IMG/VR virus record: IMGVR_UViG_3300006789_000241
Span: 1 to 20,530 of that record
Strand: one strand, 5' to 3'
Length of the DNA stretch: 20,530 nucleotides
Source: a virus
Shown here one piece after another: positions 2,286 to 18,783 of the stretch; position 1 is the first letter of the stretch; each line of letters begins with the position of its first letter. The translations under genes and the position numbers were made by a program. The notes beneath the pieces were generated by a model. It was not told where the DNA came from, did no database searches, and was given only the letters and a program-made list of their open reading frames with translations.

Positions 2286-2314
2286 TCTACCCCCCTTTAA
2301 CATTGGAACATCCC

Positions 2315-2653
2315 ATGGACATCAAATCGCTAAGGGCATTCACCCGGCTCATGGAGACCCTCGATCCTAACCTCACGATTCAACAGGTTCACATCCTCCT
2401 GACAGTGTTCGGATCTAAATCTCTGGAGAGAGATGGTTACGTTCCCTTGAGTGACATTGTGGACGCCACCGGGCACACCCTGGCGTCCGTGTCGAGGACC
2501 CTGGTGTTCTTCGGGACCCATTTGAAACCTAATCGACGGACCCCGGGCCTCGGGCTCATCGAACGTCGAGAGGACCCTGACAACAACCGCAAGAAGAACC
2601 TCTTCCTTACGAAACGAGGGAAGCTGGTCAAGACCCAACTACAGGAGCTATAG
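2315..2653 (+). CDS. MarR-like winged-helix DNA-binding protein
   Basis: At 112 aa, this matches the winged-helix part of MarR-type regulators. Helices at residues ~1-45 are followed by a recognition-helix region (LSDIVDATGHTLASVSRTL, ~50-68). The wing then carries the typical 'LIERREDPDNNRKKNLFLTKRG' pattern (~84-105, compare ER..DP.DRR...L.LT..G), followed by a short final helix. Full MarR proteins are ~140 aa, so the C-terminal dimer helix is short. I start at ATG 2315; a TTG at 2303 in frame is the alternative. It sits 2 bases ahead of the integrase gene and below a promoter with an inverted repeat, so it probably controls the choice between integration and lytic growth (inference). Confidence 0.75.
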   Translation: MDIKSLRAFTRLMETLDPNLTIQQVHILLTVFGSKSLERDGYVPLSDIVDATGHTLASVSRTLVFFGTHLKPNRRTPGLGLIERREDPDNNRKKNLFLTKRGKLVKTQLQEL

Positions 2654-2655
2654 TC

Positions 2656-3654
2656 ATGCCTATCAGAAAACGAGGATTCGGCTGGCAGGTGGATGTGAAG
2701 CACAAGGGCAACAGGATCCGAGAGACCATCCACGGATCCAAAGACCTCGCCTTGGCCCGGGAGTCCGAGATCAAGGCCCAGCTCTACAGAGGCGAGCCCA
2801 TCGTCACGGAGAGCAAGCAGGACAGGCGAGGAGGTCACACCCTGCGTGAGGCCTTCGAGCAGGCCAAGCTACAGTGGAAGAACACCAAGGCCGAGAGGAC
2901 CTCAGTAGGCAATGCCGAGAGGGTTCTCTCTTTCTTTGGGGACAACGCCTCGGTGAGTAGCATCGACCGGGACGCCGTCGCGAGGTACGTCAAGCACCTC
3001 GACGAGGACAAGGGCAACAGCTCGAGCACCATCAACCGCAAGCTCACGGCCCTGCGGGTGCTGCTCCGGACTGCCCACGAGCACGAGTGGATCGACAGGA
3101 TCCCGAGGCTCCCTAAGCTCAAGGAGCGGAAGCACCGAGTGGTCTGCTACTCCCCAGCAGAAGAGCTGAAGATCCTCGAGACCCTCAGGTCCTTAGGGTA
3201 CGACCGCCAGGCCTACCTCGTGGAGTTCCTGATCGACACTGGGCTCCGCGTCAGCGAGGCTCAGAAGCTCAAGTGGGCTCAGGTTCACGAGGATGCTGTC
3301 GAGGTCCTGGACTCGAAGAACGGTGAGAACAGGCGTGTGCCTCTCACCAAGAGAGCATCGAGGGCCATCAAGATGCAGCCCACCGGGAGGTTCCAAGGAC
3401 CCTTCGGGGGTCTCGACTACGAGAGTCACATCCGCACGGCCTGGGCCAACGTCAGGACCGCCCTGAACCGACAGGAGGATGAGCAGTTCGTCCTCCACGG
3501 CCTACGGCACACGTTCTGCTCCCGGCTCGTGCAGAGAGGCGTGCAGCTCCAGGTTGTGAAGGAGCTCGCTGGACACAAGTGTCTCCAGACCACCCTGAGG
3601 TACGCACACCTCGCACCCTCGAATCTCATGGATGCCGTGGCTCTGTTAGAGTAG
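2656..3654 (+). CDS. int: Tyrosine site-specific recombinase (integrase), 332 aa
   Basis: This is a phage integrase that would recombine attP with a host attB. An N-terminal beta/basic region (residues ~1-55, MPIRKRGFGWQVDVKHKG) resembles arm-binding domains. A SAM-like core-binding domain (~65-150) is followed by a catalytic domain with the full set of residues: R198 (TGLRVSE), a Lys in the DSKNGE beta turn, H281-x-x-R284 (HGLRH), H307 (AGHK) and the nucleophile Y316 (LRYAHL). Length is normal for the family. The ATG at 2656 follows AGGAG at 2643-2647. The gene ends 6 bases before a tRNA-Leu gene, the usual arrangement when the tRNA serves as the attachment site. Confidence 0.95.
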   Translation: MPIRKRGFGWQVDVKHKGNRIRETIHGSKDLALARESEIKAQLYRGEPIVTESKQDRRGGHTLREAFEQAKLQWKNTKAERTSVGNAERVLSFFGDNASVSSIDRDAVARYVKHLDEDKGNSSSTINRKLTALRVLLRTAHEHEWIDRIPRLPKLKERKHRVVCYSPAEELKILETLRSLGYDRQAYLVEFLIDTGLRVSEAQKLKWAQVHEDAVEVLDSKNGENRRVPLTKRASRAIKMQPTGRFQGPFGGLDYESHIRTAWANVRTALNRQEDEQFVLHGLRHTFCSRLVQRGVQLQVVKELAGHKCLQTTLRYAHLAPSNLMDAVALLE

Positions 3655-3660
3655 CGGTAA

Positions 3661-3744
3661 GGGCCTCTGGCGGAATTGGCAGACGCAAGCGACTTAAAAT
3701 CGCTTGATCGAAAGATCGTGCGGGTTCGAGTCCCGCGAGGCCCA
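3661..3744 (+). tRNA. tRNA-Leu (anticodon UAA); possible attachment site
   Basis: This is a complete class II tRNA. The acceptor stem GGGCCTC (3661-3667) pairs with GAGGCCC (3737-3743), discriminator A3744. The D arm has GGAATTGGCAGAC, the anticodon loop is CTTAAAA (3693-3699) with anticodon TAA (3695-3697), the long variable arm is GATCGAAAGATC, and the T arm is GCGGGTTCGAGTCCCGC. CCA is not encoded. TTA codons are rare in the surrounding genes, so codon supply is a poor explanation. The position directly behind the integrase suggests att function, as described for P-SSP7-type phages (inference). Confidence 0.93.
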
Positions 3745-3978: not shown

Positions 3979-4043
3979 AGCATTGAGTGTCTACCCGGAC
4001 AGACCCCGATGTGTCCCCAGGTGTGACCCAGCAGGCCAGTTTG

Positions 4044-4063
4044 AATTAACCCACCCCTTAGAA
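4044..4063 (+). promoter_or_regulatory. Candidate phage RNAP promoter, copy 1 (before RNAP gene)
   Basis: AATTAACCCACCCCTTAGAA is identical to the copy at 15021-15040 and nearly so to 6729-6748. All three lie in intergenic gaps on the coding strand, at positions where T7-like phages have their own promoters. The CAC...TTAG-AA part loosely resembles the CACTATAG core of T7/SP6 promoters, with a likely start at the G. The start to the RNAP ATG is about 180 bases. Confidence 0.6.
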
Positions 4064-4240: not shown

Positions 4241-6709
4241 ATGAATCAGCAAGACCTCTACCTGAAGCAGATCGAACTGGAAGAACACATGAGCAATGCA
4301 GGCTTGGAGCGATACCAACGCCAGGCCCAGCGTGAGCGTGAACACCAGCGAGGTTACAACACCAAGTCAGGGAAGATGCTCCTCCACGCAGTCTTGGAAC
4401 CTGCCACCCAGTACCTGACCGAGTGGCTGGAGACCCCGGTGAGAGGGAGGCCCCATGTGTCTATCACTTTCCTCAAGCAGATCAAGCCTGAGCTGGCAGT
4501 GTTCATTGCCTCTCGTCTGCTTATCGACGCAGTCATGACGCAGGACCGTCTCATCTCTGTCTGTGAGAGGATCGGTAGCCAGGTTGAGGACGAGATCAAG
4601 TACGCCCACTTCCTCGCTAATGGGAAGCTCCGAGACGGGTCGGACGTTGGCCCCTACTGGAAGAGAGTACACGAGGACATCAAGTCCAAGCGACTCCAGG
4701 ACTACGATCTCATCAAGCGTCAGCTCGACGTTGCCTTGGACCTCCACGACATCACCTGGTCAGCCTGGTCTGAGCGTGAGCGTCTGCGAGTGGGGGAGAA
4801 GCTCGTGGATGTCATCTCCAACAGCACGGACCTCGTCCAAGTGCTGAACCTCCGCAACGGTAGAAAGTCCTCCCTCGTCGTCCACCCAGGGCCAGGGATC
4901 ACGGAGATGATCGGTGAGTATGACCTGCGTATGGGCCTCCTGGCTCCTGTCCACCTCCCGTGTCTCATCCCTCCGAAGCCTTGGACCAAGCCCTTCGGTG
5001 GGGGCTACCACGGCCAACGGATCCGTAGGCTCACCTTGGTCAAGACCCGCAGTCGGTCCTACCTCGATGACCTCGGGGGCGTTGAGATGCCTGCGGTCTA
5101 CAAGTCAATCAATGCTCTCCAAGACACAGCGTGGTCGGTCAACCCCTCAGTCCTTGAGGTCGTACAGGATCTCAAGGAGCACGGGTTCGGCTGTGCTGGT
5201 CTCCCAGATCGGGAGGACCTCGAGATCCCTCCGTACCCTGACAAGTCTCACCCGGACTTCGAGAGGGTCGAGAAGGAGTGGCGACGAGACGCCCGGCAGA
5301 TCCATGAGTTCAATGCGGTGAACCTCAGCAAGCGACTGGGGACCGAACGCATCGTCAACGTGGCCGAGGACTTCATGGAGTACGAGGAGTTCTACTTCCC
5401 ATACCAGCTCGACTTCCGAGGTAGGGTCTACCCGGTAGCCTCGGACCTCCAACCTCAGGGTTGCGATCTGTCCCGTGGTCTCCTCCAGTTCTCCGAAGCC
5501 AAGGCCATCGAACACCCGGAGCAGGCCCGCTGGCTTGCCATCCATGGAGCCAACTGCTTCGGGGTTGACAAGGTCAGCATGGAAGAGCGAGTGGACTGGG
5601 TAGAGGAGCACGAGGAACTGATCCTCGGGGTCGCTACGGATCCTCTCGATACCCGTTGGTGGCAGGAGGCTGACAAGCCCTTCCAGTTCCTGGCCTGGTG
5701 CTTCGACTGGGCTGGGCTCCTGTCGGATGGGTACGGCTACGAGTCGAAGCTCCCCATCCAGATGGACGGGACCTGCAACGGCCTCCAGATCTTCTCCCTG
5801 CTCCTGCGAGATGCAGTGGGTGGGCAAGGGGTCAACCTCGTGCCCTGCGAGGATCCTCAGGACATCTACCAGCAAGTGGCAGATGAGACCACAGAGATCC
5901 TGCGTAAGGTCCTGAGGGAGTCCCCGGCCTCTGACGAGGGAGTGTGGGCGGAGAGGTGGTTACAGCTAGGCGTGGACCGCAAGCTCTGCAAGCGACCAGT
6001 CATGACCCTGCCCTACGGGGTCACTCGGTTCTCCATCCGGTCCTTCGTCTTCGACGTGGTCAAAGAGAGGTCCGAGGGATCCAAGGAGACCATCTTCGGG
6101 ACCCACCCGGAGACCCGAGAGGCCTGCAACTGGATGGGAGATCAGATCTGGGAGGCCATTGGCCGGGTCGTCATCGCAGCTCGTGAGGCTATGGACTGGC
6201 TCCAAAGCCTCGCCCGCCTCGCCAACGATCACACCAAGCCGGTGAGCTGGATGACCCCCTCAGGTCTGCCCATCATCCAGAGCTACCGTAAGCATCGGAG
6301 CAAGCGGCTGGACCTCCACATCGGGGAGTCCATGCACCGGGCTCGGATCTCTGAGGTCACCTCGACCTTGGACAAGAAGCGACAAGCCAATGGCATCGCC
6401 CCTAACTACGTCCACTCCTTGGACGGTGCTGCCCTGGCTCTGACTATCTGTCACGCCCTCGACTACGGGGTCACCTCGTTCTCGATGGTCCACGACTCCT
6501 ACGGGACGCACGCAGCGGACTCTCCGGTCCTGGCTGACTCCCTGCGAGAAGTCTTCGTTGAGATGTTCGACGGCAAGGATCTCCTCGGGGATCTTCAGCA
6601 GAGCATCCAAGACTCAGTACCCGGCGTGGACCTGGACCTCCCTCCTCGGCCCGCCTTCGGAGACCTCGTGGTCAGCGAAGTCTTGGAGTCTGAGTACTTC
6701 TTTGCCTGA
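4241..6709 (+). CDS. T7-like single-subunit DNA-directed RNA polymerase, 822 aa
   Basis: This is the phage-specific transcriptase that reads middle and late genes (T7 gene 1 equivalent; T7's is 883 aa). The conserved motifs are all present: the DFRGRVYP block (D391, R393-R395), motif A QMDGTCNGLQ with catalytic D509, motif B RKLCKRPVMTLPYG with K584 and Y592 spaced as in T7 (K631, Y639), and motif C MVHDSYG with catalytic D752. The chain ends EYFFA, like the aromatic C-terminal foot of T7 RNAP that enters the active site. The ATG at 4241 follows CAGGAG at 4226-4231. Unusually, a copy of the presumed phage promoter lies upstream, so it may activate its own gene. Gene-specific promoter choice cannot be read from the sequence. 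Confidence 0.97.
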   Translation: MNQQDLYLKQIELEEHMSNAGLERYQRQAQREREHQRGYNTKSGKMLLHAVLEPATQYLTEWLETPVRGRPHVSITFLKQIKPELAVFIASRLLIDAVMTQDRLISVCERIGSQVEDEIKYAHFLANGKLRDGSDVGPYWKRVHEDIKSKRLQDYDLIKRQLDVALDLHDITWSAWSERERLRVGEKLVDVISNSTDLVQVLNLRNGRKSSLVVHPGPGITEMIGEYDLRMGLLAPVHLPCLIPPKPWTKPFGGGYHGQRIRRLTLVKTRSRSYLDDLGGVEMPAVYKSINALQDTAWSVNPSVLEVVQDLKEHGFGCAGLPDREDLEIPPYPDKSHPDFERVEKEWRRDARQIHEFNAVNLSKRLGTERIVNVAEDFMEYEEFYFPYQLDFRGRVYPVASDLQPQGCDLSRGLLQFSEAKAIEHPEQARWLAIHGANCFGVDKVSMEERVDWVEEHEELILGVATDPLDTRWWQEADKPFQFLAWCFDWAGLLSDGYGYESKLPIQMDGTCNGLQIFSLLLRDAVGGQGVNLVPCEDPQDIYQQVADETTEILRKVLRESPASDEGVWAERWLQLGVDRKLCKRPVMTLPYGVTRFSIRSFVFDVVKERSEGSKETIFGTHPETREACNWMGDQIWEAIGRVVIAAREAMDWLQSLARLANDHTKPVSWMTPSGLPIIQSYRKHRSKRLDLHIGESMHRARISEVTSTLDKKRQANGIAPNYVHSLDGAALALTICHALDYGVTSFSMVHDSYGTHAADSPVLADSLREVFVEMFDGKDLLGDLQQSIQDSVPGVDLDLPPRPAFGDLVVSEVLESEYFFA

Positions 6710-6728
6710 CAACACTCAACGCTGGTTG

Positions 6729-6748
6729 ATTAAACCCACCCCTTAGAA
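6729..6748 (+). promoter_or_regulatory. Candidate phage RNAP promoter, copy 2 (after RNAP gene)
   Basis: ATTAAACCCACCCCTTAGAA shares 16 exact bases (AACCCACCCCTTAGAA) with copies 1 and 3, with one extra A upstream. It lies in the 76-base gap after the RNAP gene, the place where T7 has phi1.1A/B and its primary origin. It would drive the small genes through endonuclease I to the terminator at 9007. Confidence 0.6.
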
Positions 6749-6785
6749 ATAAGAAACCTTCATTCCTCCACAGGAGCCACACACC

Positions 6786-6998
6786 ATGTCGGAACTGGAC
6801 AACATCGAAGAACGCATTGAGCATTGGATCGGAGAGAAAGAGGCGGTGCAACGAAGCATCGACTCCCTCGAGGCCCGGCTGCAAGAGGTTGAAGAATCTC
6901 TCGATGAGCTGGCTGACCTCGCTGACCTCACTGAGTCTGTTGAGGACTCCGAGGAACAGGCCTGGTTGTTCGCACAAGATCTGGAGGAAGAAGATTGA
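6786..6998 (+). CDS. Small acidic coiled-coil protein, 70 aa
   Basis: The protein is nearly all predicted helix with heptad character (IEERIEHWIGEKEAVQRS, then LEARLQEVEESLDELADL) and a strongly acidic C-terminal half ending LEEED. CAGGAG lies 12 bases before the ATG at 6786. It is the first gene after the RNAP and behind a candidate phage promoter. By position it falls among the T7 gene 1.1-2 set, but no similarity to T7 gp2 or other known members is apparent. Acidic small proteins here often bind host enzymes; that is only an analogy. Confidence 0.7.
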   Translation: MSELDNIEERIEHWIGEKEAVQRSIDSLEARLQEVEESLDELADLADLTESVEDSEEQAWLFAQDLEEED

Positions 6999-7276
6999 GT
7001 AAGACTTACACCGTCATCGCAGAGGGGGAGAAGGCGTGCAGCCTCCATCCTCCGATCTCTGAGGGAGAGGTGACCATCCTCACCCAGGACATCGAGTTCC
7101 GGGGGCAGGTGACCAACACCTCGGAGACCTCCGTGTCTGTGCGAGGCTTCCGCAACGTGGTAAAGAAGTCCCGAGGCAAGTACATCGACGTTCGTACCCC
7201 GTTCGTCCTGCACTTCAGCCGGGGTGACATCATCGACCCTCGCAAGGGATCGTTCAGTGGGGGTCGGATCGGTTGA
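6995..7276 (+). CDS. Hypothetical protein, 93 aa, TTG start
   Basis: The frame contains no ATG, so the TTG at 6995, which overlaps the preceding stop (TTGA) and follows GGAGGAAG, is the only sensible start. The protein appears to be beta-rich: KTYTVIAEGEK, GEVTILTQDIEFRGQV, ETSVSVRGFRNVV, with a basic middle (KKSRGKY). There are no membrane segments. The function is unknown. The next gene also begins with TTG overlapping this stop. Confidence 0.65.
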   Translation: MSKTYTVIAEGEKACSLHPPISEGEVTILTQDIEFRGQVTNTSETSVSVRGFRNVVKKSRGKYIDVRTPFVLHFSRGDIIDPRKGSFSGGRIG

Positions 7277-7539
7277 AGACTGACTTCAACCTGGACCAAG
7301 TGGTCAACGCTGTGCCTGACCACGTTGGACGACGAGCCTTCCGATTCATCAATCAGTTTGACCCCGACCTGCCCGAGGCGTGTGCCCTCGGTCTGAGCCT
7401 GGCCCTGCTCCGAGTGTGTGAGCACTGGGACACGGACCCCAAGCGATTCATGCAGGTCGCTGAGAAGATCTACCGCAAGACCGAGGCAGAGGAGCCTTAC
7501 ATGCGAGCAGTGGATCAGTTCATCCGAGAAGAAATATGA
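7273..7539 (+). CDS. Hypothetical helical protein, 88 aa, TTG start
   Basis: This starts at TTG 7273 overlapping the previous stop (TTGA); the internal Met codons are far too late. Beginning MKTDFNLDQVVNAVPDHVG, it is helical and acidic, with a central hydrophobic segment (ACALGLSLALLRVCEHW) too short and mixed to be a confident membrane span. Its stop overlaps the ATG of the next gene. The family is not recognised. Confidence 0.65.
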   Translation: MKTDFNLDQVVNAVPDHVGRRAFRFINQFDPDLPEACALGLSLALLRVCEHWDTDPKRFMQVAEKIYRKTEAEEPYMRAVDQFIREEI

Positions 7540-7670
7540 CCCTCTCCGACAAGATCAAGTTCAGCCTAATAGCAGGAGTAGCTACATGCTACGTCCTCGT
7601 CGCTGTTGCAGCAGGACTCGCTGTCCCTGCGGCTGCTATCTACGCCATCTACTACTTCGCAACCCACTAA
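7536..7670 (+). CDS. Small membrane protein, 44 aa
   Basis: The ATG at 7536 overlaps the preceding stop (ATGA). After a short polar start (MTLSDKIKF) the rest is a nearly continuous hydrophobic stretch: SLIAGVATCYVLVAVAAGLA, then VPAAAIYAIYYFATH. This gives one long or two short membrane helices with a Pro hinge. It could be an inner-membrane effector against the host or a holin-like peptide. Position between early genes and SSB favours host interference over lysis, but neither is shown. Confidence 0.6.
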   Translation: MTLSDKIKFSLIAGVATCYVLVAVAAGLAVPAAAIYAIYYFATH

Positions 7671-7688
7671 GCACAGGAAACAAACAAC

Positions 7689-8309
7689 ATGGCAAAATCA
7701 AAAGTTACCCCAGCAGGCACAGCCCAGTGGCCTCGTCTCAATTCCCCTGACACCAAGTTCGATGAGGACGGTGTCTACAAGACCGACCTGGTCCTCGGGG
7801 CTGAGGAGTCCGAAGACCTCCGCGAGGCCATCGACCAGATCGCTGAGGAGGGCTGGCAGAATGCTATCGACAAGGAGTCGAAGCCTGCCAAGAAGAACGC
7901 CCTGAAGAAGTTCAACTACCACGCTCCCTACTTCCCCGAGGAAGACGATCAGACTGGCGAGGAGACTGGCAACTTCGTGTTCCGGTTCAAGACCAAGGCG
8001 AAGAACAAGGACGGCAGCACCAAGAAGCTCCCCCTTGTCGATGCCAAGAAGAAGCCTGTCGGTGAGATCGTAGGTAACGGCTCGACCATCAAGGTCGCCT
8101 TCAGCCCTAACGACTACCAGATGCCTACCTCCAAGCAGTACGGCTGCACCCTGTACCTCAACGCTGTCCAGGTTCTCGACCTCGTGGCAGCAGGAGGCGG
8201 CGGTGCCAGTGCCTTCGATGAGGAGGACGGCTTCGAGTCTGAGGAGGCCCCTGAAGAGGTCTTCGCTGGTGCGAGTGACTCCGAAGATGAGACGGATGGC
8301 GACTTCTAA
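7689..8309 (+). CDS. Single-stranded DNA-binding protein, T7 gp2.5-like
   Basis: At 206 aa (T7 gp2.5 is 232), it begins MAKSKVTPAGTAQWPRLN. It has an OB-fold-like core with basic and aromatic segments (FVFRFKTKAKNKDGS, KVAFSPNDYQMPTSKQYG), then a Gly-rich linker and a very acidic tail ending in DGDF. The acidic tail with a terminal Phe is the feature by which T7 gp2.5 contacts polymerase and helicase. Position directly before endonuclease I matches T7. It would coat and anneal ssDNA during replication and recombination. AGGAAA precedes the ATG at 7689. The end overlaps the next gene by 14 bases. Confidence 0.88.
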   Translation: MAKSKVTPAGTAQWPRLNSPDTKFDEDGVYKTDLVLGAEESEDLREAIDQIAEEGWQNAIDKESKPAKKNALKKFNYHAPYFPEEDDQTGEETGNFVFRFKTKAKNKDGSTKKLPLVDAKKKPVGEIVGNGSTIKVAFSPNDYQMPTSKQYGCTLYLNAVQVLDLVAAGGGGASAFDEEDGFESEEAPEEVFAGASDSEDETDGDF

Positions 8310-8667
8310 ATATCGCTCAGGTCTCGAAGAGCGAAACGCCAAGCATCTAGAGTCCCTCGGGATCCCCTATGAGTACGAGAAGTTCAAGGTGAAGTTCGAG
8401 GTCAACAAGACCTCTACCTACACGCCTGACTTCGTCCTACCTAACGGGGTCATCATCGAGACCAAGGGTCGCTTCACCTCCGCAGACCGCGTCAAGCATC
8501 TGCGTGTCAAGGAGCAGCACCCTGACCTAGACATCCGCTTCGTCTTCAGTCGGTCAGGTTCACGCCTCTACAAGGGAGCCAAGTCCACCTACGCAAGCTG
8601 GTGTGAGAAGCACGGCTTCCTCTACGCCGACTGTCTGATCCCCAAAGACTGGTTGGCAGATGTTTAA
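8296..8667 (+). CDS. Endonuclease I (Holliday-junction resolvase), T7 gp3-like
   Basis: The 123-aa protein aligns along its length with T7 endonuclease I (149 aa): KYRSGLEERNAKHLES, then TYTPDFVLPNGVIIETKG, KEQHPDLDIRFVFS, LYKGAKSTYASWCEKHG and LIPKDWL. Catalytic residues are conserved at E11, D45, E55 and K57 (PD...ExK nuclease fold). I choose ATG 8296, which leaves the RSGLE motif near the N-terminus; it lies within the last codons of the SSB gene. The basic C-terminal tail of the T7 protein is missing. It resolves branched DNA and helps degrade host DNA. Confidence 0.95.
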   Translation: MATSKYRSGLEERNAKHLESLGIPYEYEKFKVKFEVNKTSTYTPDFVLPNGVIIETKGRFTSADRVKHLRVKEQHPDLDIRFVFSRSGSRLYKGAKSTYASWCEKHGFLYADCLIPKDWLADV

Positions 8668-8998
8668 GAAACGGAAGCAAACATCGAACATCTTCGTGTT
8701 CTACGAGGAGTTCGAGCACGACGCCAACGCTGATGACATTGATGCCCTGCATCGGTCTCGCGGTGGTCTGTGTAATGGGTTCCACTACGTCATCCGGAAG
8801 GACGGCAAGGTTGAGCAAGGACGCGATGAGCTGGAGCACGGGTGGCATACCCCAGGACGCAACGCTGACACCCTCGCGGTGTGTTACATCGTTGACCCTG
8901 GCGGGGAGCCGAACGACCAGCAGGTTGGGAGTGAGGTACTGAGAACTCTCTCGGTTAAGTACCCTCACGCCGAGGTGATCTACCCTCACCAACGATGA
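8660..8998 (+). CDS. Shortened lysozyme-like (T7 gp3.5) protein, predicted without amidase activity
   Basis: The 112-aa protein aligns with T7 lysozyme (N-acetylmuramoyl-L-alanine amidase and RNAP inhibitor, 151 aa), most clearly at GFHYVIRKDGKVEQGRDE (residues 40-57) and GWHTPGRNADTLAVC. From memory of T7 numbering, zinc ligand H17 is replaced by F14 (FVHC becomes FVFY), catalytic Y46 by F41, and the chain stops at YPHQR, before the T7 segment with H122, K128 and C130. So amidase function should be lost while the RNAP-binding fold may remain. It overlaps the endonuclease gene by 8 bases; a strong terminator follows at once. A sequencing frameshift near the end cannot repair the N-terminal changes. 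Confidence 0.85.
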   Translation: MFKKRKQTSNIFVFYEEFEHDANADDIDALHRSRGGLCNGFHYVIRKDGKVEQGRDELEHGWHTPGRNADTLAVCYIVDPGGEPNDQQVGSEVLRTLSVKYPHAEVIYPHQR

Positions 8999-9006
8999 AC
9001 CCAAAG

Positions 9007-9034
9007 AAGCCCCTGGCGAAAGCTGGGGGCTTTT
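9007..9034 (+). terminator. Intrinsic terminator after the lysozyme-like gene
   Basis: AAGCCCCTGGC (9007-9017) pairs with GCTGGGGGCTT (9022-9032) with two wobbles, capped by a GAAA tetraloop and followed by a T-rich run (TTTTATT). It is 8 bases after the stop of the lysozyme-like gene and separates the middle genes from the replication genes. Confidence 0.85.
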
Positions 9035-9063
9035 ATTCGTAACACACACACAGGAGCAACAAC

Positions 9064-9240
9064 ATGAGACGCAAGATGTACCCCCGGAGGTTTCGGGAGA
9101 AGTCCGTCTTCTCCATCCCAGATGCTTTACTGAACAGCACATGGGGATGGGCAGATATGGGGAGAGAGATGGAGAGACGCAAGGGAACCCTTGAGCAAGA
9201 GAAGGAACGGAAGGCCAGTGAAGAGCGGAGGAGTCGATGA
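9064..9240 (+). CDS. Small basic/charged protein, 58 aa
   Basis: The gene starts MRRKMYPRRFREK and has a strong AGGAG site (9051-9055) before the ATG at 9064. The first 15 residues are very basic. A short segment VFSIPDALLNSTWGWADMG follows, and the remainder is a charged helix rich in Glu, Arg and Lys. Its stop overlaps the start of the primase-helicase (ATGA), so the two are probably translated together. It may bind nucleic acid; no family is recognised. Confidence 0.6.
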   Translation: MRRKMYPRRFREKSVFSIPDALLNSTWGWADMGREMERRKGTLEQEKERKASEERRSR

Positions 9241-10859
9241 GTGAAAGCGAAGCAATCCAAACCCAACTCCCCTGCGAAGACTGCGGGAGCTCAGACGCCA
9301 AGGCCCTATACGATGATGGGCATACCTTCTGTTTTTCTTGTGAGAGCCACCGACAGGGCGAGGTATCGGAAGATGCCCCGAGACCTGAGGATACTCCTCG
9401 AGGACCACTCCTACCTACGGGAGAATACTCACCTCTACCGAGTCGAAAGCTAAAGGCAGAGACCTGTAAGAAGTACCGCTACTCCCTCGGTAAGTTCAAG
9501 GGCAAGACGGTACACATCGCCACGTTCTGCAACGACGCCGGTAAACCTGTGATGCAGAAGATCCGCACAGCGGACAAGGACTTCATCCAACTCGGAGACA
9601 AGAAGAACCCTCCCCTGTTCGGGCAGCACATCTGCCGAGACGCTGGGAAGATGGTCGTGGTCACCGAGGGTGAGCTCGATGCCATGGCAGCAGCACAGGC
9701 AATGAGCCCTAAGCTCACCTGGCCTGCCGTGTCTGTTCCTAACGGAGCACAGTCAGCTAAGAAGCACCTGGCGAATCACCTCGAGTGGCTCTGCCGATTC
9801 GAGAAGGTGATCCTGGCGTTCGACATGGACGAGCCAGGACGCAAGGCAGCAGAAGAGTGTGCTGCTTTGTTCCCTCCCGGGAAGGCCTTCATCGCACAGC
9901 TCCCCGCTAAGGATGCGTGCGAGGCCCTGCAAGAGGGGAAGTACAAGGAGCTGGTAGACAGCTTCTGGGGAGCCAAGGCCTGGAGACCTGACGGCATCGT
10001 CTCAGTCAATGAGATTGTTGACGATGTCCTCACGGATCCTCAGCACGGTGCTCCGTTCCCTTGGGCCTCATTAACAGACGCCACGTATGGCCGACATCCC
10101 GGGGAACTACTCACCATCGGAGCTGGCACCGGAGTCGGTAAGACTGACGTGCTCACCCAGATGGTGGCTTATGACCTCAACGAGCTGCACCTCAAGTGTG
10201 GCGTCATCTTCCTCGAGCAGAGCCCACGACAAACTGTCAGGCGGCTGGCAGGAAAGATCGACGGCAAGCGATACCACCTCCCTCAGGACGAGGAGGGCTG
10301 GGACTCTGAGCAACTGGAGAAGACGGTGAGGTCCATTGGGGACCGGGGGACTCTGTTCCTCTACAACCACTTCGGATCCATGGACTGGGAGAACATCAAG
10401 GCCAAGATCCGCTACATGGTTCTGAGCCTCGGTGCCCAGCACATCTACCTCGACCACCTCACGGCGATGGCGGCGGCAGAAGAGAACGAGAAGGAAGCCC
10501 TCGAGCACATCATGGCCGAGGTTGCGGGCCTGTCACAGGAACTCCAGGTGGTCTTCCACCTCGTGAGTCACCTGACCACTCCTGAGGGAACACCTCACGA
10601 GGAGGGCGGTCGAGTGAAGATCCGACACTTCAAGGGGTCCCGGTCCATTGGGTTCTGGAGTCACAACATGATTGGACTCGAGCGGAACCAACAGGCTGAG
10701 GACGAGGACGAGCGGTTCACTACCACCGTCCGCATCCTGAAGTGGCGAGAGAACGGGGAGGTGGTCGGACAGACCATCCCCATCAAGTACCAACCAAGCA
10801 CAGGACTTCTATTGGAGTCCGATGGCATAGGAGCATTCGATGACGAGACTGGCTTTTGA
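9237..10859 (+). CDS. Bifunctional DNA primase-helicase, T7 gp4-like, 540 aa
   Basis: This is the replication primase and 5'-3' hexameric helicase. An N-terminal zinc motif has C13, C16, C32 and C35 (CEDC...CFSC). The TOPRIM primase core shows VTEGELDAMAAAQ and LAFDMDEPGRKAAEE. The RecA-like helicase domain has a Walker A loop GAGTGVGKTD, a HIYLDHLTAM motif B region and a KGSRSIGFWSHNMIGLERN segment matching helicase motif H4. The chain ends FDDETGF, an acidic tail with terminal Phe as used by T7 gp4 to hold its polymerase. T7 gp4A is 566 aa. It overlaps the polymerase gene by 20 bases. Confidence 0.96.
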   Translation: MSESEAIQTQLPCEDCGSSDAKALYDDGHTFCFSCESHRQGEVSEDAPRPEDTPRGPLLPTGEYSPLPSRKLKAETCKKYRYSLGKFKGKTVHIATFCNDAGKPVMQKIRTADKDFIQLGDKKNPPLFGQHICRDAGKMVVVTEGELDAMAAAQAMSPKLTWPAVSVPNGAQSAKKHLANHLEWLCRFEKVILAFDMDEPGRKAAEECAALFPPGKAFIAQLPAKDACEALQEGKYKELVDSFWGAKAWRPDGIVSVNEIVDDVLTDPQHGAPFPWASLTDATYGRHPGELLTIGAGTGVGKTDVLTQMVAYDLNELHLKCGVIFLEQSPRQTVRRLAGKIDGKRYHLPQDEEGWDSEQLEKTVRSIGDRGTLFLYNHFGSMDWENIKAKIRYMVLSLGAQHIYLDHLTAMAAAEENEKEALEHIMAEVAGLSQELQVVFHLVSHLTTPEGTPHEEGGRVKIRHFKGSRSIGFWSHNMIGLERNQQAEDEDERFTTTVRILKWRENGEVVGQTIPIKYQPSTGLLLESDGIGAFDDETGF

Positions 10860-12639
10860 CGTCGAGGGGAATGACCTCCTCGACAACTGCACACACATTC
10901 ACTGCATCGTCACCAAGGACTTAGACACCGGCAAGGTGAAGACCTTCGTTGACGGTGAGATCGGGCTGGCGATTGAGGATCTCGAGAACGCCTCGGAGAT
11001 CTGGGCACACAACGGGATCAAGTACGACATCCCAGTGCTCCAGAAGCTCTGGGGTCTCCGGCCTCCTGTAGTCCGTGACACCCTCGTCACCCTCCGACTC
11101 ATGCACCCCGACACGTACACCCTCGACGAGCCTCTGGTCAAGAAGCAGAAGCTCCCTCAGAACCTCATGGGATCCCACAGCCTCGCTGCGTGGGGCCACA
11201 GGATCGGTGAGCACAAGCAGGACTACAAGGGAGGCTTCGAGACCTTCAGCCAAGAGATGCTTGACTACTGCGTGCAGGACGTTGAGGTGCTCTACAAGCT
11301 GGTCAAGAAGATCGAGGCCAAGGACTACAGCCAGCAGGCCGTCGAGCTTGAGCACAAGTTCGCTGAGCTGATCTGGCTCCAGGAGCAGAATGGTTTCGGG
11401 ATCAACCTCGACAAGGCCCGCTCACTACACACCGACCTCATGGCCCGACACTCGGAGCTAGAGGATGAGTTGCAGGCTGCGTTCCCTCCGAGGATCCAAG
11501 AGATGAAGAGCCGGTACTGGGTTGCTACGGGTTACGAAGATGATCCGGAGTGCCTGTTCGACACGCTGGCGGATGCTGAGGAATGTGGCTGGGGTAGAGG
11601 AGAACTTGAACAGGGACCTCACAAGACCAAGTCCATCCCCTTCAACCCTGGGTCCCGTCAAGAGTGCGGGGATCGCCTACGACAAAAGTACAAGTGGAAG
11701 GTCCCGGAGAAGCTCAGTGATGATGTCTTCGCGGGGCTCAAGTATCCCGAGGCTCAGCTCATCGCTGAGTACCTCATGGTCAAGAAACGACTCGGTCAAC
11801 TGTCTGATGGTAAGGCAGCGTGGCTGAAGCTAGAGAAGAACGGAGCGATACATGGAGCAGTCAACACCAACGGTGCAGTCACCGGACGATGCACGCACTC
11901 CCGACCCAACATGGCTCAGGTTCCTAAAGCATCTGATAGGGTGCCATTTGGATCTCGATGCCGTGAGCTATTTCAACCTACACGACGCGGATGGAAGCTC
12001 GTCGGGTGTGACGCCTCCGGACTCGAACTCCGATGCCTCGCACACTACATGGCACGCTGGGACGATGGAGCCTACGCCAAGGAAGTCCTCGAGGGTGACG
12101 TTCACACTACGAATCAAAAGGCTGCTGGCCTGGAGACCCGGGACCAAGCGAAGACGTTCATCTACGCCTTCGTGTACGGGGCAGGGGACGGGAAGCTAGG
12201 CGACATTAAGGGCAAGGGCCCTAAGGTTGGCAAGCAGCTCCGGTCCAAGTTCTTGGAGGACCTCCCGGCCCTCGATAAGTTAATCAAGGCAGTCAAGGCC
12301 AAGGTCGCCAAGACGAACACGCTGCTCGGTCTTGACGGTCGCATCCTCCACGTTCGATCAGCCCACTCAGCACTTAACACTCTGTTGCAGTCTGCTGGTG
12401 CTGTAATCATGAAGCAAGCACTCATCCACTTCTGTGAGGAGATGGACGAGAGGGAGATCCTCTACGGACTCTGTGCCAACGTGCACGACGAGTTCCAGGT
12501 GGAGGTCCCTGACCACTCAGCTTACGAGGCAGCAGCCATCGCAGAGTACTCAATACAGAAAGCCGGGGAGACCCTCGACTTTCGTTGTCCCCTAGCAGGA
12601 GAGGCCAAGGTTGGAAACAACTGGGCCGAAACACACTGA
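10840..12639 (+). CDS. Family A DNA polymerase, T7 gp5-like, 599 aa
   Basis: This is the replicative polymerase with 3'-5' proofreading. Exonuclease motifs: LAFDVEGND (D7, E9), the IKYDIPVL region and YCVQDVEVLYKLV. Polymerase motif A is GCDASGLELRCLAHYMARWD (D391). The O-helix is RDQAKTFIYAFVYGAG (R434, K438, Y442). Motif C is VHDEFQVEVP (H549, D550). At 599 aa it is shorter than T7 gp5 (704), so the thioredoxin-binding loop is probably reduced or absent. Y442 corresponds to the E. coli Pol I position 762 that is used to type viral polymerases, here a Tyr as in T7. Its stop overlaps the start of the next gene. Confidence 0.97.
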   Translation: MTRLAFDVEGNDLLDNCTHIHCIVTKDLDTGKVKTFVDGEIGLAIEDLENASEIWAHNGIKYDIPVLQKLWGLRPPVVRDTLVTLRLMHPDTYTLDEPLVKKQKLPQNLMGSHSLAAWGHRIGEHKQDYKGGFETFSQEMLDYCVQDVEVLYKLVKKIEAKDYSQQAVELEHKFAELIWLQEQNGFGINLDKARSLHTDLMARHSELEDELQAAFPPRIQEMKSRYWVATGYEDDPECLFDTLADAEECGWGRGELEQGPHKTKSIPFNPGSRQECGDRLRQKYKWKVPEKLSDDVFAGLKYPEAQLIAEYLMVKKRLGQLSDGKAAWLKLEKNGAIHGAVNTNGAVTGRCTHSRPNMAQVPKASDRVPFGSRCRELFQPTRRGWKLVGCDASGLELRCLAHYMARWDDGAYAKEVLEGDVHTTNQKAAGLETRDQAKTFIYAFVYGAGDGKLGDIKGKGPKVGKQLRSKFLEDLPALDKLIKAVKAKVAKTNTLLGLDGRILHVRSAHSALNTLLQSAGAVIMKQALIHFCEEMDEREILYGLCANVHDEFQVEVPDHSAYEAAAIAEYSIQKAGETLDFRCPLAGEAKVGNNWAETH

Positions 12640-13079
12640 TGAGCATCAATTCTTTTCGCTGTCGCACCTGCGACTGCAAGCTACGCCTCGATGACAACTG
12701 GCCCGTTCACCGTGCCAAGAACCGTCACTACATCTGTGACGCCTGTAACAAGAAAGAGCAGAGCCCCAAGGTCCCCAACGGCCACGGGTATGTCTACCTC
12801 CTCCGTAACGAGAACCACCCCGGTCGGTACAAGATCGGTAAGTCTCGCAACCCCGAGGCTCGCTGTCAGAAATTCAACACAGCCTGCCCCGACCGTTCCT
12901 TCTCAGTGGTGAGGACTTGGTACAGCAAGAACTACTCCAAGCTCGAGGCGGATGTCCACTTCACTCTACATGAGTACCGACTCCCTGGGACCGAATGGTT
13001 CGAGGGGGACGGTGAAAACTTTGAGGCCATCATCAATGCTCTATCTAATGCCCGACGCTCTCATGTCCACGCCGATTGA
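12639..13079 (+). CDS. GIY-YIG (T5orf172-type) endonuclease with N-terminal zinc finger
   Basis: In this 146-aa protein the first 40 residues carry C8, C11 (or C13), C33 and C36 (CRTC...CDAC), a likely zinc-binding DNA-recognition element. The rest fits the GIY-YIG superfamily in its T5orf172/Mug113 form: GYVYLLRN (residues 50-57), then RYKIGKSRNPEARCQKFN, a helix with SKLEADVHFTLHEYR and the final GTEWFEG. Such proteins in phages are often free-standing homing endonucleases inserted between conserved genes. Here it sits exactly between polymerase and exonuclease. The ATG overlaps the polymerase stop by one base. T7 has other small genes here (5.3 is an HNH-type enzyme), so the site is a known insertion point. 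Confidence 0.85.
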   Translation: MSINSFRCRTCDCKLRLDDNWPVHRAKNRHYICDACNKKEQSPKVPNGHGYVYLLRNENHPGRYKIGKSRNPEARCQKFNTACPDRSFSVVRTWYSKNYSKLEADVHFTLHEYRLPGTEWFEGDGENFEAIINALSNARRSHVHAD

Positions 13080-13287
13080 CCCCATCGAGACCTTCTCGAC
13101 GAATGAGCTCGTCACCGAGATCTCCAAGAGATTCGAGGGATTCATCCTAGCTGGGTACACGTTGCCCCGATGTAGGGGGGAGTACCCGCCTCAGGTCTAC
13201 GCTGACACTGACCTGGACACTCTCGCAGAGATCCAGGAGCTCGGTGGCAAGTTCTTTGACTTCATGGCATCGGAGTTGAGCGAATGA
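13063..13287 (+). CDS. Hypothetical acidic protein, 74 aa
   Basis: The ATG at 13063 lies within the last codons of the GIY-YIG gene; an in-frame ATG at 13048 is an alternative start and neither has a strong ribosome binding site. The protein is acidic and compact: MSTPIDPIETFSTNELVTEI, then FEGFILAGYTLP, then TLAEIQELGGKFFDFMASEL. There are no known motifs. Its stop overlaps the exonuclease start by four bases (ATGA), so it is likely co-translated with the replication genes. Confidence 0.55.
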   Translation: MSTPIDPIETFSTNELVTEISKRFEGFILAGYTLPRCRGEYPPQVYADTDLDTLAEIQELGGKFFDFMASELSE

Positions 13288-14039
13288 GAACTCTCCTCCT
13301 AGACGCCGATGTAATCGCCTTCAAGATCGCAGCGGTCAATGAGACAGCCGTGGACTGGGACGGTGATGGTGAGGATCCCCAGGTGTTCGCTAACGAAGCG
13401 GACGCCAGGGCCCAGCTCACCTCCTACGTGGATGAACTGCTGGACCTCACGGAGAGTGATGAGGTTGTGGTGTGTCTATCGTGCAAGACCGGACGCTACT
13501 ACCGCCACGACTTCTTCCCTGAGTACAAGGCCAACCGTACCCACGGTCGGAGACCCGAGCTACTCACCCTGATGAAGGACGTGCTGGCTGATGAGTACCA
13601 CAGCTATCGCAAGGACAGCCTCGAGGCTGACGATGTCCTCGGGATCCTTCAGACCAAGCCTACCAAGGCATGGTCCGAGTCGGTGATCTGCACCGTGGAC
13701 AAGGACCTCCGACAGATCCCCGGGCTCCATGTGAACATGAAGACCTGGCAGATCGAGGAGGAGACCGAGGAGGCGGGGGAGTACTTCTTCTACACCCAGA
13801 TACTGACCGGCGACACCGTCGATGGTTTCAAAGGGTGTCCGGGGATTGGCCCTAAGAGGGCCGAGAAGATCCTCGGGGATCTCCAGGCCGATGAGTACTG
13901 GCCTGCGATTGTCGAGGCCTACGAGAAGAAGGGCCTGACCGAAGAAGACGCAATCATCCAAGCTCGCGTGGCTCGCATCCTGCGACACGGTGAGTATGAC
14001 TACACAAACAAGGAGCCGATTCTATGGAATCCACAATAA
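13284..14039 (+). CDS. 5'-3' exonuclease (FEN family), T7 gp6-like, 251 aa
   Basis: This enzyme degrades duplex ends and removes RNA primers. Metal-binding acidic clusters of the FEN/PIN-like nuclease fold are visible: DADVIAF (D7, D9), EYKANR, EADDVLG (E114, D116, D117), TVDKDLRQIPG (D139, D141) and GDTVDGFKG. A helix-hairpin-helix (CPGIGPKRAEKIL) follows. T7 gp6 is 300 aa. The gene directly follows the polymerase block as in T7. The ATG at 13284 overlaps the preceding stop; the last 16 bases overlap the next gene. Confidence 0.93.
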   Translation: MRTLLLDADVIAFKIAAVNETAVDWDGDGEDPQVFANEADARAQLTSYVDELLDLTESDEVVVCLSCKTGRYYRHDFFPEYKANRTHGRRPELLTLMKDVLADEYHSYRKDSLEADDVLGILQTKPTKAWSESVICTVDKDLRQIPGLHVNMKTWQIEEETEEAGEYFFYTQILTGDTVDGFKGCPGIGPKRAEKILGDLQADEYWPAIVEAYEKKGLTEEDAIIQARVARILRHGEYDYTNKEPILWNPQ

Positions 14040-14263
14040 AAGTACCAGACCTGGATATGGCACACGCCCTCGCATCTTTCATCCCCAGTCGTATGTATGT
14101 TCTGTACGACCCCAAGCGGAAGAAGGTAAACGAGCCTATCCGCAGTACTAACGGGCCTTTCTATCGTAGTCAGGCAGCAGCCCGACGAGCCAACCGACAG
14201 TACGGGGGCAGCCTCCAGATCTTTGAGTTCACCGCTAAGGGTCCATACTTGGAGGTCGAATAA
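14024..14263 (+). CDS. Hypothetical protein, 79 aa
   Basis: This starts at ATG 14024, inside the end of the exonuclease gene; AAGGAG (14010-14015) lies 8 bases upstream. The sequence looks like a small folded domain: ASFIPSRMYVLYDPKRKKV, then FYRSQAAARRANRQYGG, then LQIFEFTAKGPYLEVE. The beta-helix-beta order and the basic helix suggest a partner- or nucleic-acid-binding role, but no family is recognised. Its stop overlaps the next ATG (TAATG). Confidence 0.65.
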   Translation: MESTIKVPDLDMAHALASFIPSRMYVLYDPKRKKVNEPIRSTNGPFYRSQAAARRANRQYGGSLQIFEFTAKGPYLEVE

Positions 14264-14655
14264 TGTACACAGAAGTAAAAGACTCAGGCCATCGGGAAGA
14301 CTTCACCACCGGCAGTGTCCGGGACACCCGGGAAGGCAAGGGTCGCTACGACCTCATCTCCCCGATCTTCACCGAACGCCTAGCGAAGCACCTCGAGCTC
14401 GGGGCAGCGAAGTACGACGAGCGGAACTGGGAGAAGGGACAGGAGGTCAGCCGCTGCATGGACTCATGCAAGCGACACCTCAACAAGTACCTCGAGGGTC
14501 ACCGGGACGAGGACCACCTTGCCGCCGCCTCCACCAACCTCATGTTCATCATCCATACCGAGGAGATGGTACGGCGGGGTAGGCTCCCGGTGACCCTGAT
14601 CGACTGGCCGAACTATCTGGCCGAGTGGGATGACCAGGACGAGGACGACTGGTGA
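14263..14655 (+). CDS. dATP/dGTP diphosphohydrolase-like (DUF5664) nucleotide enzyme
   Basis: The 130-aa protein fits the phage dNTP pyrophosphohydrolase N-terminal family (DUF5664, related to all-alpha MazG-type enzymes). Visible hallmarks are REGKGRYDLISP near residue 25, LELGAAKYDERNWEKGQ (~46-62), a helix with CKRHLNKYLEGH and the acidic DEDHLAAASTNLMF (~84-97). The Asp/Glu/His positions would bind Mg and the triphosphate. It should adjust the dNTP pool during replication; the exact substrate cannot be read from the sequence. Its TGA overlaps the GTG start of the next gene. Confidence 0.8.
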   Translation: MYTEVKDSGHREDFTTGSVRDTREGKGRYDLISPIFTERLAKHLELGAAKYDERNWEKGQEVSRCMDSCKRHLNKYLEGHRDEDHLAAASTNLMFIIHTEEMVRRGRLPVTLIDWPNYLAEWDDQDEDDW

Positions 14656-15026
14656 AGTACGTCTACCTCTCCGGTCCCATGACCGGCATCAAGGACTTCA
14701 ACCGCCCCCTGTTCAACGACGTCGCAGAGACCCTCCGTAGCCACTTCAAGTGGGACGTGTGGAACCCTGCGGAGCATGATGGCCCAGAGATCGAGCAGTA
14801 CGTGGAGCGGAGGAAGCTCCCTGACCACCTGTGGCAGGAGGTTCTGGACAAGGATCTAGCGGTCATCAAGGAGAAGTGCTGGGCTGTGGCTGTCCTCCCA
14901 GGCTGGACCGAGAGCCCCGGTGCCAGGGCCGAGGTGGATCACGCCCTTGAGAATGGCCTTAAGTTGTATCATATCAACAACTTAGGCTCCCTGCGGTACA
15001 GCACTGACAGCATCCTAGCCAATTAA
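14652..15026 (+). CDS. DUF4406 / nucleoside 2-deoxyribosyltransferase-like protein
   Basis: The 124-aa protein begins KYVYLSGPMTGIKDFNRPLF, the signature of DUF4406 and related nucleoside deoxyribosyltransferase folds. It has WNPAEHDG, a DLAVIKEKCWAVAVLPGW strand and SPGARAEVDHALENG, where the S/GAR.E segment contributes the active-site Glu in the family. It starts with GTG at 14652 overlapping the previous stop (GTGA); the first internal Met is in the signature itself and would remove it. With the preceding gene it forms a two-gene nucleotide-metabolism unit. The biochemical role of phage members is not settled. Confidence 0.8.
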   Translation: MKYVYLSGPMTGIKDFNRPLFNDVAETLRSHFKWDVWNPAEHDGPEIEQYVERRKLPDHLWQEVLDKDLAVIKEKCWAVAVLPGWTESPGARAEVDHALENGLKLYHINNLGSLRYSTDSILAN

Positions 15027-15040
15027 CCCACCCCTTAGAA
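15021..15040 (+). promoter_or_regulatory. Candidate phage RNAP promoter, copy 3 (before virion genes)
   Basis: AATTAACCCACCCCTTAGAA is identical to copy 1 at 4044-4063. It overlaps the last codon and stop of the preceding gene and ends 16 bases before the ATG at 15057. It marks the start of the late region (gp7.3-like, portal, scaffold, capsid). Confidence 0.6.
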
Positions 15041-15056
15041 CCCCAGAGGATTCTAA

Positions 15057-15233
15057 ATGAAGCACCTGCATATACCTAAGGATGTCATTAAGCACCTCGA
15101 GGGTCACATTAAACCCCTCCAGCCAAAGCCCTCGGAAACCATCGAGAGCATCATGTATCAGGCTGGGAGACTGCAAGTTCTTGAACATCTCAAGCACCTG
15201 CATGAAACCTATGACCAAGAGGAAACTGCCTGA
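15057..15233 (+). CDS. Small late protein, 58 aa
   Basis: This begins MKHLHIPKDVIKHLEGH and contains a helix IESIMYQAGRLQVLEHLKHL. An AGAGGA site (15045-15050) stands before the ATG at 15057, and the TGA overlaps the ATG of the next gene. It is the first gene behind candidate promoter copy 3. His-rich and helical, it may be a small virion or assembly factor, like T7 gp6.5-7 by position only. No homology is recognised. Confidence 0.6.
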   Translation: MKHLHIPKDVIKHLEGHIKPLQPKPSETIESIMYQAGRLQVLEHLKHLHETYDQEETA

Positions 15234-15445
15234 TGTGTCTGTCATCCCCTAAGACTCCGAAGATCGAAGCCGTCAAACCGGCCACGCCCCCGCCCCCTCC
15301 TATCGCTCCTGAGCGTCCACAGGCATCTCCTGTGGTCCAGAGGAACCGGAAGAACAAGGTGCGGCGTAACTCACTCACCATCTCTAACCCCACGACCGGG
15401 ACCAATGCGAACAGCTCTGGCTCTGGTGTTAGCGTCCGTAGCTAA
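15233..15445 (+). CDS. Tail-assembly-like small protein (T7 gp7.3-like)
   Basis: The 70-aa protein has a form common just ahead of the portal gene in T7-like phages: an MC start, a proline run (ATPPPPPIAP), then a basic end KNKVRRNSLTISNP and a Ser/Gly-rich tail SSGSGVSV. The basic-SLT/S-Gly-rich C-terminus resembles T7 gp7.3 (99 aa), a virion protein needed for tail assembly and host range. It is mostly disordered and probably fills or decorates the head-tail junction. The identification rests on position and composition. Confidence 0.65.
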   Translation: MCLSSPKTPKIEAVKPATPPPPPIAPERPQASPVVQRNRKNKVRRNSLTISNPTTGTNANSSGSGVSVRS

Positions 15446-15450
15446 TAGAG

Positions 15451-17016: not shown

Positions 17017-17026
17017 GGAGCACTAG

Positions 17027-17839
17027 ATGCCCGAAGTACCCCTCGAGTCTGATCCTGCCATCGACCCTAAGGTCGAGGATGCAGTGAAGAACGAGACTCC
17101 CATGCCAGGCTTAGAGAAGTTCTGGGATGAGGAGAGTAAAACCTACCGTCAAGAAGACATCCAGAAGAGCTACGTTGAGCTTCAAAAGAAGTTCAGCTCC
17201 AAGGCTCCTGAGGGTGGCGACAAGCCTGACCTGAGCATCGACAAGGGTGAGCCAGAGGATCCTAAGACTGAAGAGCCTAAGGATCCCGAGGTCAACCCTG
17301 AGCAGGTGGTCAGCGATGCTGGCTTAGACATGGATGCCCTCAACGCGGAGTACGCAGAGACGGGCGACCTGTCCAAGGACTCCAAGCAGGCCATCCTCGA
17401 ACAGGTCAAGCACCTGGGCGTGGACGAGGCTGGCTTGGACCTGTACCTCAAGGCCCAGGCTGAGGCCTCAGCAGGCTTCGCTAAGGAGGTCTACGAGATC
17501 GTAGGAGGTGAGCAGGAATACCAGGCTCGCCTCGAGTGGGCACAGGCCAACCTAAGCCCTGACGAGATCCAGGCCTTCAATGACGTTGTCAACGACAGCG
17601 ACAAGGAGAAGGTCAAACTATCCGTGGCTGGACTCGATGCTCGATACCGGGACGCAGTGGGCTCGCCCCCTAAATCCCCAGTGTCTGGTAGACGATCCTC
17701 GGCGGGTGGGGTTCAGCCCTTCGCTTCCCAGATGGAAGCAACCCAGGCAACCATGGACCCTCGGTATAGCACCGATGAGTCCTATCGCCGGGAAGTGACA
17801 CAACGTCAAATTGAAACCCTGAGACTCCGAGGTAAGTAA
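17027..17839 (+). CDS. Capsid assembly (scaffolding) protein, T7 gp9-like, 270 aa
   Basis: This internal scaffold guides procapsid formation and leaves before DNA packaging. It is acidic and largely helical: an EKFWDEESKTYRQEDIQKSY segment near residue 30, a long Asp/Glu/Pro linker (GEPEDPKTEEPKDPE), helices around 130-200 and a basic C-terminal helix (SYRREVTQRQIETLRLRGK) that should contact the capsid protein. An AAGGAG site (17016-17021) precedes the ATG at 17027. It lies directly after the portal as in T7, but unlike in T7 the capsid gene does not follow at once: three small genes intervene. Confidence 0.9.
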   Translation: MPEVPLESDPAIDPKVEDAVKNETPMPGLEKFWDEESKTYRQEDIQKSYVELQKKFSSKAPEGGDKPDLSIDKGEPEDPKTEEPKDPEVNPEQVVSDAGLDMDALNAEYAETGDLSKDSKQAILEQVKHLGVDEAGLDLYLKAQAEASAGFAKEVYEIVGGEQEYQARLEWAQANLSPDEIQAFNDVVNDSDKEKVKLSVAGLDARYRDAVGSPPKSPVSGRRSSAGGVQPFASQMEATQATMDPRYSTDESYRREVTQRQIETLRLRGK

Positions 17840-18024
17840 TGGATACCGAAGCAATCGTAACCGCCATCGTAGCGGCACACGCCCTGGCAGTAGCAATCGT
17901 CAACCTGACCCCTACGCCTAAGGACAACGCCCTCTTGGGTAAAGCCTACAAGGTGATCGAAGTGGTCGCAGGTATTGTCACGTCTACAGCAAAGCAGGTG
18001 GCAGATGAACAGTCGGACAGTTGA
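17839..18024 (+). CDS. Holin-like small membrane protein, 61 aa
   Basis: The ATG at 17839 overlaps the scaffold stop (TAATG). A hydrophobic helix at residues 5-22 (AIVTAIVAAHALAVAIVN) is followed by LTPTPKDN, a polar loop, and a second mildly hydrophobic helix AYKVIEVVAGIVTS. The 'N.TPTPKD..(G)K.YK.IE..A' pattern occurs, from memory, in small phage proteins found in lysis cassettes. I therefore call it holin-like without proof. It could instead be a virion membrane-active peptide. It overlaps the lipoprotein gene by 20 bases. Confidence 0.6.
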   Translation: MDTEAIVTAIVAAHALAVAIVNLTPTPKDNALLGKAYKVIEVVAGIVTSTAKQVADEQSDS

Positions 18025-18736: not shown

Positions 18737-18764
18737 ATAACCGGACAACCTGTTGTTGACGCTA

Positions 18765-18781: not shown

Positions 18782-18783
18782 AG

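Follow-up and report, generated by a model that had tools for sequence, protein, structure and literature searches.

The gene at positions 8660-8998 (+ strand) of the 20.5-kb virus record analyzed here in full (IMGVR_UViG_3300006789_000241, positions 1 to 20,530; referred to as the window) encodes a homologue of T7 lysozyme that, judged from its sequence, has lost its amidase function and is likely to have been retained solely to bind and inhibit the phage RNA polymerase (RNAP). T7 lysozyme, the product of gene 3.5 (gp3.5; PDB 1LBA, 1ARO), is the textbook case of a bifunctional phage protein, being both an N-acetylmuramoyl-L-alanine amidase and an inhibitor of the phage RNAP, and it serves as an RNAP brake in the pLysS and pLysE expression strains. 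The open reading frame of 112 codons and its translation were found exactly as given in a preliminary description of this DNA, which had recognized the homology to T7 lysozyme and had proposed that only the regulatory role remains. We refer to the product as the pseudo-lysozyme.

The window could be extended by two overlapping contigs. G001, a 31-kb contig, is 99.9% identical to window positions 5692-18995 (13.3 kb) and reaches about 16 kb farther to the right than this match; L258, a 4.7-kb contig, shares 182 bp with the end of G001 at 98.9% identity and contributes TerS, TerL, and a 90-amino-acid HExxH protein at the right end of the genome. Together with the window they represent about 41 kb of one T7-like phage with genes for SSB, endonuclease I, primase/helicase, DNA polymerase, exonuclease, portal, scaffold, capsid, tail, and internal virion proteins. 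The HExxH protein (L258:301-570, − strand) lies directly after TerL, carries the motif HELLH, and weakly matches phrog_1233, a family of unknown function. The gene for tail tubular protein B (nozzle) seems to be split in G001 (L004:2320-6101) into a 994-amino-acid ORF, an 85-amino-acid ORF, and a 159-amino-acid ORF matching the C-terminus of the nozzle family. An ORF after the DNA polymerase gene (12585-13079) appears by eye to encode a GIY-YIG/T5orf172-type domain.

At window positions 2303-3744, a transcriptional regulator gene (2303-2653, +; phrog_9665), a tyrosine integrase gene (2656-3654, +), and a tRNA-Leu gene (3661-3744, immediately downstream of the integrase) follow one another, with the regulator located where temperate T7-like phages, in the LUZ100 layout, have their MarR-like gene. 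Judging from this row, the window phage is a temperate-type T7-like phage, and the tRNA-Leu gene is likely its attachment site. The T7-like single-subunit RNAP of 822 amino acids, which we propose as the target of the pseudo-lysozyme, is encoded at 4241-6709 (+; RNA_pol, 356 bits). When RNAPs are compared, LUZ100 is the closest named phage (42%); it is a T7-like Pseudomonas phage that shows temperate features (PMC10134795). A search for prophages in bacterial genomes yielded 11 T7-like loci, 8 of them usable, and nothing closely related to the window phage.

The pseudo-lysozyme matched the T7 lysozyme chain 1aro_L with E=6e-12, the PHROG 822 amidase family with E=2.6e-19, and Amidase_2 with 28.3 bits (cut-off 26). 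Its start codon overlaps the stop codon of the upstream endonuclease I gene (gp3 homologue; 8296-8667, +), and the order endonuclease I, pseudo-lysozyme, primase/helicase (gp4) is that around T7 gene 3.5. On these sequence matches the protein belongs by descent to the T7 gp3.5/PHROG 822 family. An intrinsic-terminator-like hairpin (9005-9034, +; −22.7 kcal/mol, z=−4.5) lies directly after its stop codon; a consensus terminator scan did not list it. A frameshift or read error hiding a full-length C-terminus was considered and rejected: G001 encodes the identical 112 amino acids, and the missing segment KACPSF is absent from every other frame downstream of the gene. An AlphaFold2 model calculated from a 54-sequence alignment reached a pLDDT of 90 and a pTM of 0.83, and its best match among solved folds, with a TMq of 0.86, was 1aro_L, the T7 lysozyme chain of the complex with RNAP; peptidoglycan recognition proteins (PGRPs) were also among the structural matches. 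The amidase-2 fold is thus predicted to be retained, in agreement with what had been proposed earlier.

The active site fared differently. In the alignment to T7 lysozyme the zinc ligand H17 is replaced by F14 (codon 8699-8701, +) and the catalytic Y46 by F41, followed by H42, the equivalent of T7 H47, which is kept in all (codons 8780-8785, +), both replacements being as previously stated. The preliminary description had also reported that the C-terminal segment with H122, K128, and C130 is absent and that all catalytic positions are lost. This holds for K128 and C130, but it slightly overstates the case for H122, as H110 in the C-terminal ...YPHQR (codon 8987-8989, +) was placed at this position by the profile alignment, though one column off in another alignment. 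The protein therefore has, at the three zinc-ligand positions, a phenylalanine, an uncertain histidine, and a gap, and at the two catalytic positions a phenylalanine and a gap. Judged by these residues, a lone histidine three residues from the C-terminus is no zinc site without H17 and C130. The Y46F variant of T7 lysozyme has zero amidase activity, and PGRP-LB loses its zinc on the exchange C160S, which is equivalent to T7 C130 (PMC8124813). Taken with these mutant data, the residue losses argue that the pseudo-lysozyme is dead as an amidase while its fold is predicted to be intact, and its sequence rules it out as a T7-type zinc amidase. That it might still be an amidase by means of an alternative metal site is extremely unlikely; H110 and other histidine and cysteine residues (H31, H42, H60, H63, C38, C75) could be enlisted for such a site, but H17, K128, and C130 are gone, Y46F alone abolishes the activity of the T7 enzyme, and the homologues described below show different and unrelated losses.

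Loss of the active site was not confined to the window phage. In a survey of 116 gp3.5 matches from IMG/VR loci, all five residues were kept in 98. Given in the order H17, Y46, H122, K128, C130, the dead types were F,F,H?,-,- in the window; -,Y,-,-,- in L008; P,F,-,-,- in L026 and L183; and H,F,A,G,E/D in the L070-L182 clade. When named phages were included, further types were D,Y,R,T,G in CRP-804, CRP-403, and CRP-118 and eight contigs (L199-L206) and H,F,Y,L/V,S in the pelagiphage HTVC109P. Four other pelagiphages showed milder damage. In the gp3.5 of the pelagiphages AP013542 and MT375528, H122 is replaced by Cys and Y46 by Phe, with K128 and C130 kept, which on sequence is an intermediate state of the active site. 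The dead copies sit at the same genomic place as the intact ones. The RNAP tree places the window phage and the L008 phage as sisters (support 95); on this tree the dead label requires at least three changes, of which the starred branches alone force only one. By this sequence comparison, active-site loss is recurrent, in at least three lineages of the RNAP tree plus a pelagiphage. Among the open-licence papers searched, none described an amidase-dead gp3.5. Some of the proteins with a lost zinc site are annotated as lysozyme in cultured marine phages, roseophages included (gp12 of OR420734, OR420752, and OR420741; gp15 of MH598805).

Two dead clades were divergent enough for pairwise dN/dS, which was 0.04-0.20 where dS was measurable, indicating that the proteins of those clades are maintained; the estimate covers these other clades, the only close copy of the window protein being identical to it. 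The latter point leaves some room for the view that the pseudo-lysozyme is a decaying gene, which lost its active site and C-terminus after another lysin took over and is now functionless and on its way out. The gene can disappear entirely, as three relatives without gp3.5 show, and the short protein stops immediately ahead of the C-terminal catalytic segment. We nevertheless consider decay unlikely, since the ORF, with its overlapping start and its terminator, is open in two contigs, the fold prediction is good, the dead homologues recur under purifying selection, and the RNAP contact signature described below is kept.

The pattern of residues across the dead proteins also bears on what they may do. 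Residues C18, A20, K128, and C130 in the cleft are gone, and I14, V16, F/Y46, H47, I50, G54, R60, S76, I77, and V79 are kept. A non-catalytic peptidoglycan-binding protein that aids lysis or infection and has no part in transcription would be conceivable by analogy with animal PGRPs, which belong to the same fold family and recur among the structural matches, and whose non-catalytic members bind peptidoglycan without zinc (PMC8124813). This role is very improbable, as most or all dead proteins lack the cleft residues C18, A20, H36, N73, S67, K128, and C130, the gene has remained in the early/DNA operon beside endonuclease I and primase, and the covariation seen is with RNAP contact residues.

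Published contacts of T7 RNAP with lysozyme are residues 307, 309-312, 720, 721, 724, 726, 728, 736, 844, 850-853, and 855; zinc is unnecessary for the inhibition, and the RNAP-binding part of lysozyme comprises amino acids 2-52 (PMC5445346). Plain conservation of the T7 contact residues was dropped as a test, as most of these sites vary even among phages with an intact gp3.5. A ranked comparison with phages lacking gp3.5 was used instead. The alignment contained 58 RNAPs less than 90% identical to one another, 27 from phages with an intact gp3.5, 11 with a dead gp3.5, and 20 without gp3.5. Of the T7 columns, 172 were conserved in the intact as well as the dead group; they included only two published contacts, 307 and 724, and both were in the top 5 columns for loss in the 20 RNAPs without gp3.5 (p=0.0007). 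Column 304, three residues from 307, ranked first. An acidic residue at site 307 was present in 25 of 27 RNAPs of the intact group, in all 11 of the dead group, and in 3 of the 20 without gp3.5, and it was lost in all nested lineages without gp3.5 (L021, L222 ProddE, L076, L067/L223, and L221 Pasto). The pattern at site 307 held in 20 held-out genomes: D or E was found in 12 of 12 further named phages with gp3.5, and among the T7-like loci from bacterial genomes with a readable gp3.5 status E was found in 3 of 3 with gp3.5 and D or E in 0 of 5 without. A tree-based sign test for this site pointed in the expected direction and was not significant (median p 0.25, 3 starred independent pairs).

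The RNAP of the window phage keeps the equivalents of Y304, D307, and P724, and the segment Y274-L-D-D277 (T7 304-307; 5060-5071, +) is the proposed docking site of the pseudo-lysozyme. On the side of the lysozyme, R32 (codon 8753-8755, +), which corresponds to T7 position 37 in helix 1, was invariant in the first set of aligned dead homologues. One hint came post hoc: T7 (R) and L069 (M), the two exceptions in which gp3.5 is intact and site 307 is not acidic, are also the only 2 of 38 with K in place of R at lysozyme position 37, though L or I is found there in two others.

With a cognate T7-like RNAP in the genome and the contact signature kept, the one sequence feature of a T7-type RNAP inhibitor that is missing is the T7 N-terminus: the pseudo-lysozyme begins at the equivalent of F5, and R2-V3-Q4, which are important for inhibition in T7, are absent. 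As these residues are also missing in several intact homologues (e.g. L012 and CRP-125), the N-terminal requirement of T7 may not be general. The invariable synteny with endonuclease I and primase would also fit another protein of the replication operon as the partner, such as primase/helicase or endonuclease I. We regard this as very doubtful, as the coevolution test, in which RNAP was the sole partner examined, gave its signal at published lysozyme contacts. The relatives have repeatedly lost the amidase and kept both the protein and the RNAP docking site, so the protein most likely survives only to restrain RNAP. The earlier designation as a dedicated transcription regulator is thus well, though indirectly, supported by the predicted fold, the recurrent loss, the selection in other dead clades, and the RNAP signature.

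The position of the gene suggests how such a restraint might operate. A 23-nt repeat, TTGAWTWAACCCACCCCTTAGAA, occurs at 4041 and 6726 and with mismatches at 15018, with none expected by chance; the near-identical intergenic copies, also given as AACCCACCCCTTAGAA, are at 4041-4063, 6726-6748, and 15018-15040, all on the + strand, and a further copy follows TerL (L258:737-752, −). The first precedes the RNAP gene by about 180 bp, the second lies just after it at the head of the operon ending in the pseudo-lysozyme, and the third ahead of the structural genes. This layout resembles that of the LUZ100 phage promoters, so the repeat is probably the phage-RNAP promoter (putative sequence also written TTGAATTAACCCACCCCTTAGAA), and transcription of the RNAP gene by its own product is likewise probable. 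In the operon, which probably runs from 6726 to the hairpin at 9005-9034, the pseudo-lysozyme comes last. With a phage-RNAP promoter at the head, its dose should rise with RNAP activity. We infer from this arrangement that the gp3.5 descendant would be made in proportion to RNAP activity and, by physical binding and inhibition, would put a negative-feedback brake on the RNAP in the manner of T7 lysozyme. In Pseudomonas putida, T7 lysozyme and four further T7-like lysozymes each inhibited the cognate RNAP (PMC10138996).

The preliminary description had suggested that lysis is handled by another enzyme encoded elsewhere. This suggestion was borne out in relatives. None of the 7 complete genomes whose gp3.5 active site is fully preserved (T7, LUZ100, CRP-125, CRP-113, CRP-227, RHEph01, and BB8) carried CHAP or Phage_lysozyme, against 7 of 8 complete genomes with a damaged gp3.5 (Fisher p=0.0014, the phages not being independent), namely CHAP in CRP-804, CRP-403, and CRP-118 and Phage_lysozyme in HTVC109P, HTVC168P, S35C6, and Jormungand; neither was found in the eighth, Eistla. 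The L026-type contig G015 encodes a SleB-type Hydrolase_2 protein. In the cultured marine phages with a damaged 'lysozyme', lysis is likely due to the CHAP protein (gp40 in CRP-804, and relatives) or to the Phage_lysozyme protein (gp54 in HTVC109P), and the 'lysozymes' of CRP-804, CRP-403, CRP-118, and HTVC109P are probably not lysins. For the window phage itself the suggestion found no such backing, as searches of its about 41 kb, including L258, for Phage_lysozyme, Hydrolase_2, Peptidase_M15_4, SLT, and CHAP were negative. The L070-type phages G011 and G012, which have a dead gp3.5, likewise had no recognizable lysin. A candidate XhlA-like holin is encoded in the window phage (L004:15806-16018). 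We infer a replacement lysin there as well, which would be encoded either in the small unseen part of the genome or be of an unrecognized kind.

Natural amidase-dead gp3.5 proteins would be evidence that the two functions of this protein came apart several times in evolution, and the RNAP docking residues 304, 307, and 724 would be identified by coevolution. Since amidase toxicity is a stated problem for brakes on orthogonal phage RNAPs (PMC10138996), such proteins would also offer non-lytic brakes matched to these polymerases. A broader proposal, which we advance tentatively as a possibility, is that amidase-dead gp3.5 forms a recurrent, unrecognized class of dedicated brakes on single-subunit phage RNAPs that arises each time a T7-like phage acquires another lysin and that in temperate T7-like phages, the window phage included, damps the self-transcribing RNAP; with no known lysin in about 41 kb, the window phage would then have a lysin of an unrecognized type.

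Among known systems, T7 lysozyme shares with the pseudo-lysozyme its sequence homology, predicted fold, position between endonuclease I and primase/helicase, and a cognate T7-like RNAP, but it has the four active-site residues H17, Y46, K128, and C130, the C-terminal catalytic segment, and the inhibition-aiding N-terminal residues that the pseudo-lysozyme lacks. LUZ100 resembles the window phage in gene order, MarR-type regulator, integrase, and a phage promoter upstream of its own RNAP gene, whereas its gp17 keeps all five active-site residues. The 'lysozymes' of the Roseobacter phages CRP-804, CRP-403, and CRP-118 also have a dead zinc site (H17D, H122R, K128T, C130G), the same genomic place, and a preserved RNAP signature; they differ in being of full length, in having kept Y46, in their substitutions, and in that their genomes carry a CHAP protein able to replace the lysin. 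The non-catalytic PGRPs of animals likewise have the amidase-2 fold with a lost zinc site, but they bind peptidoglycan in immunity and have no link to an RNA polymerase.
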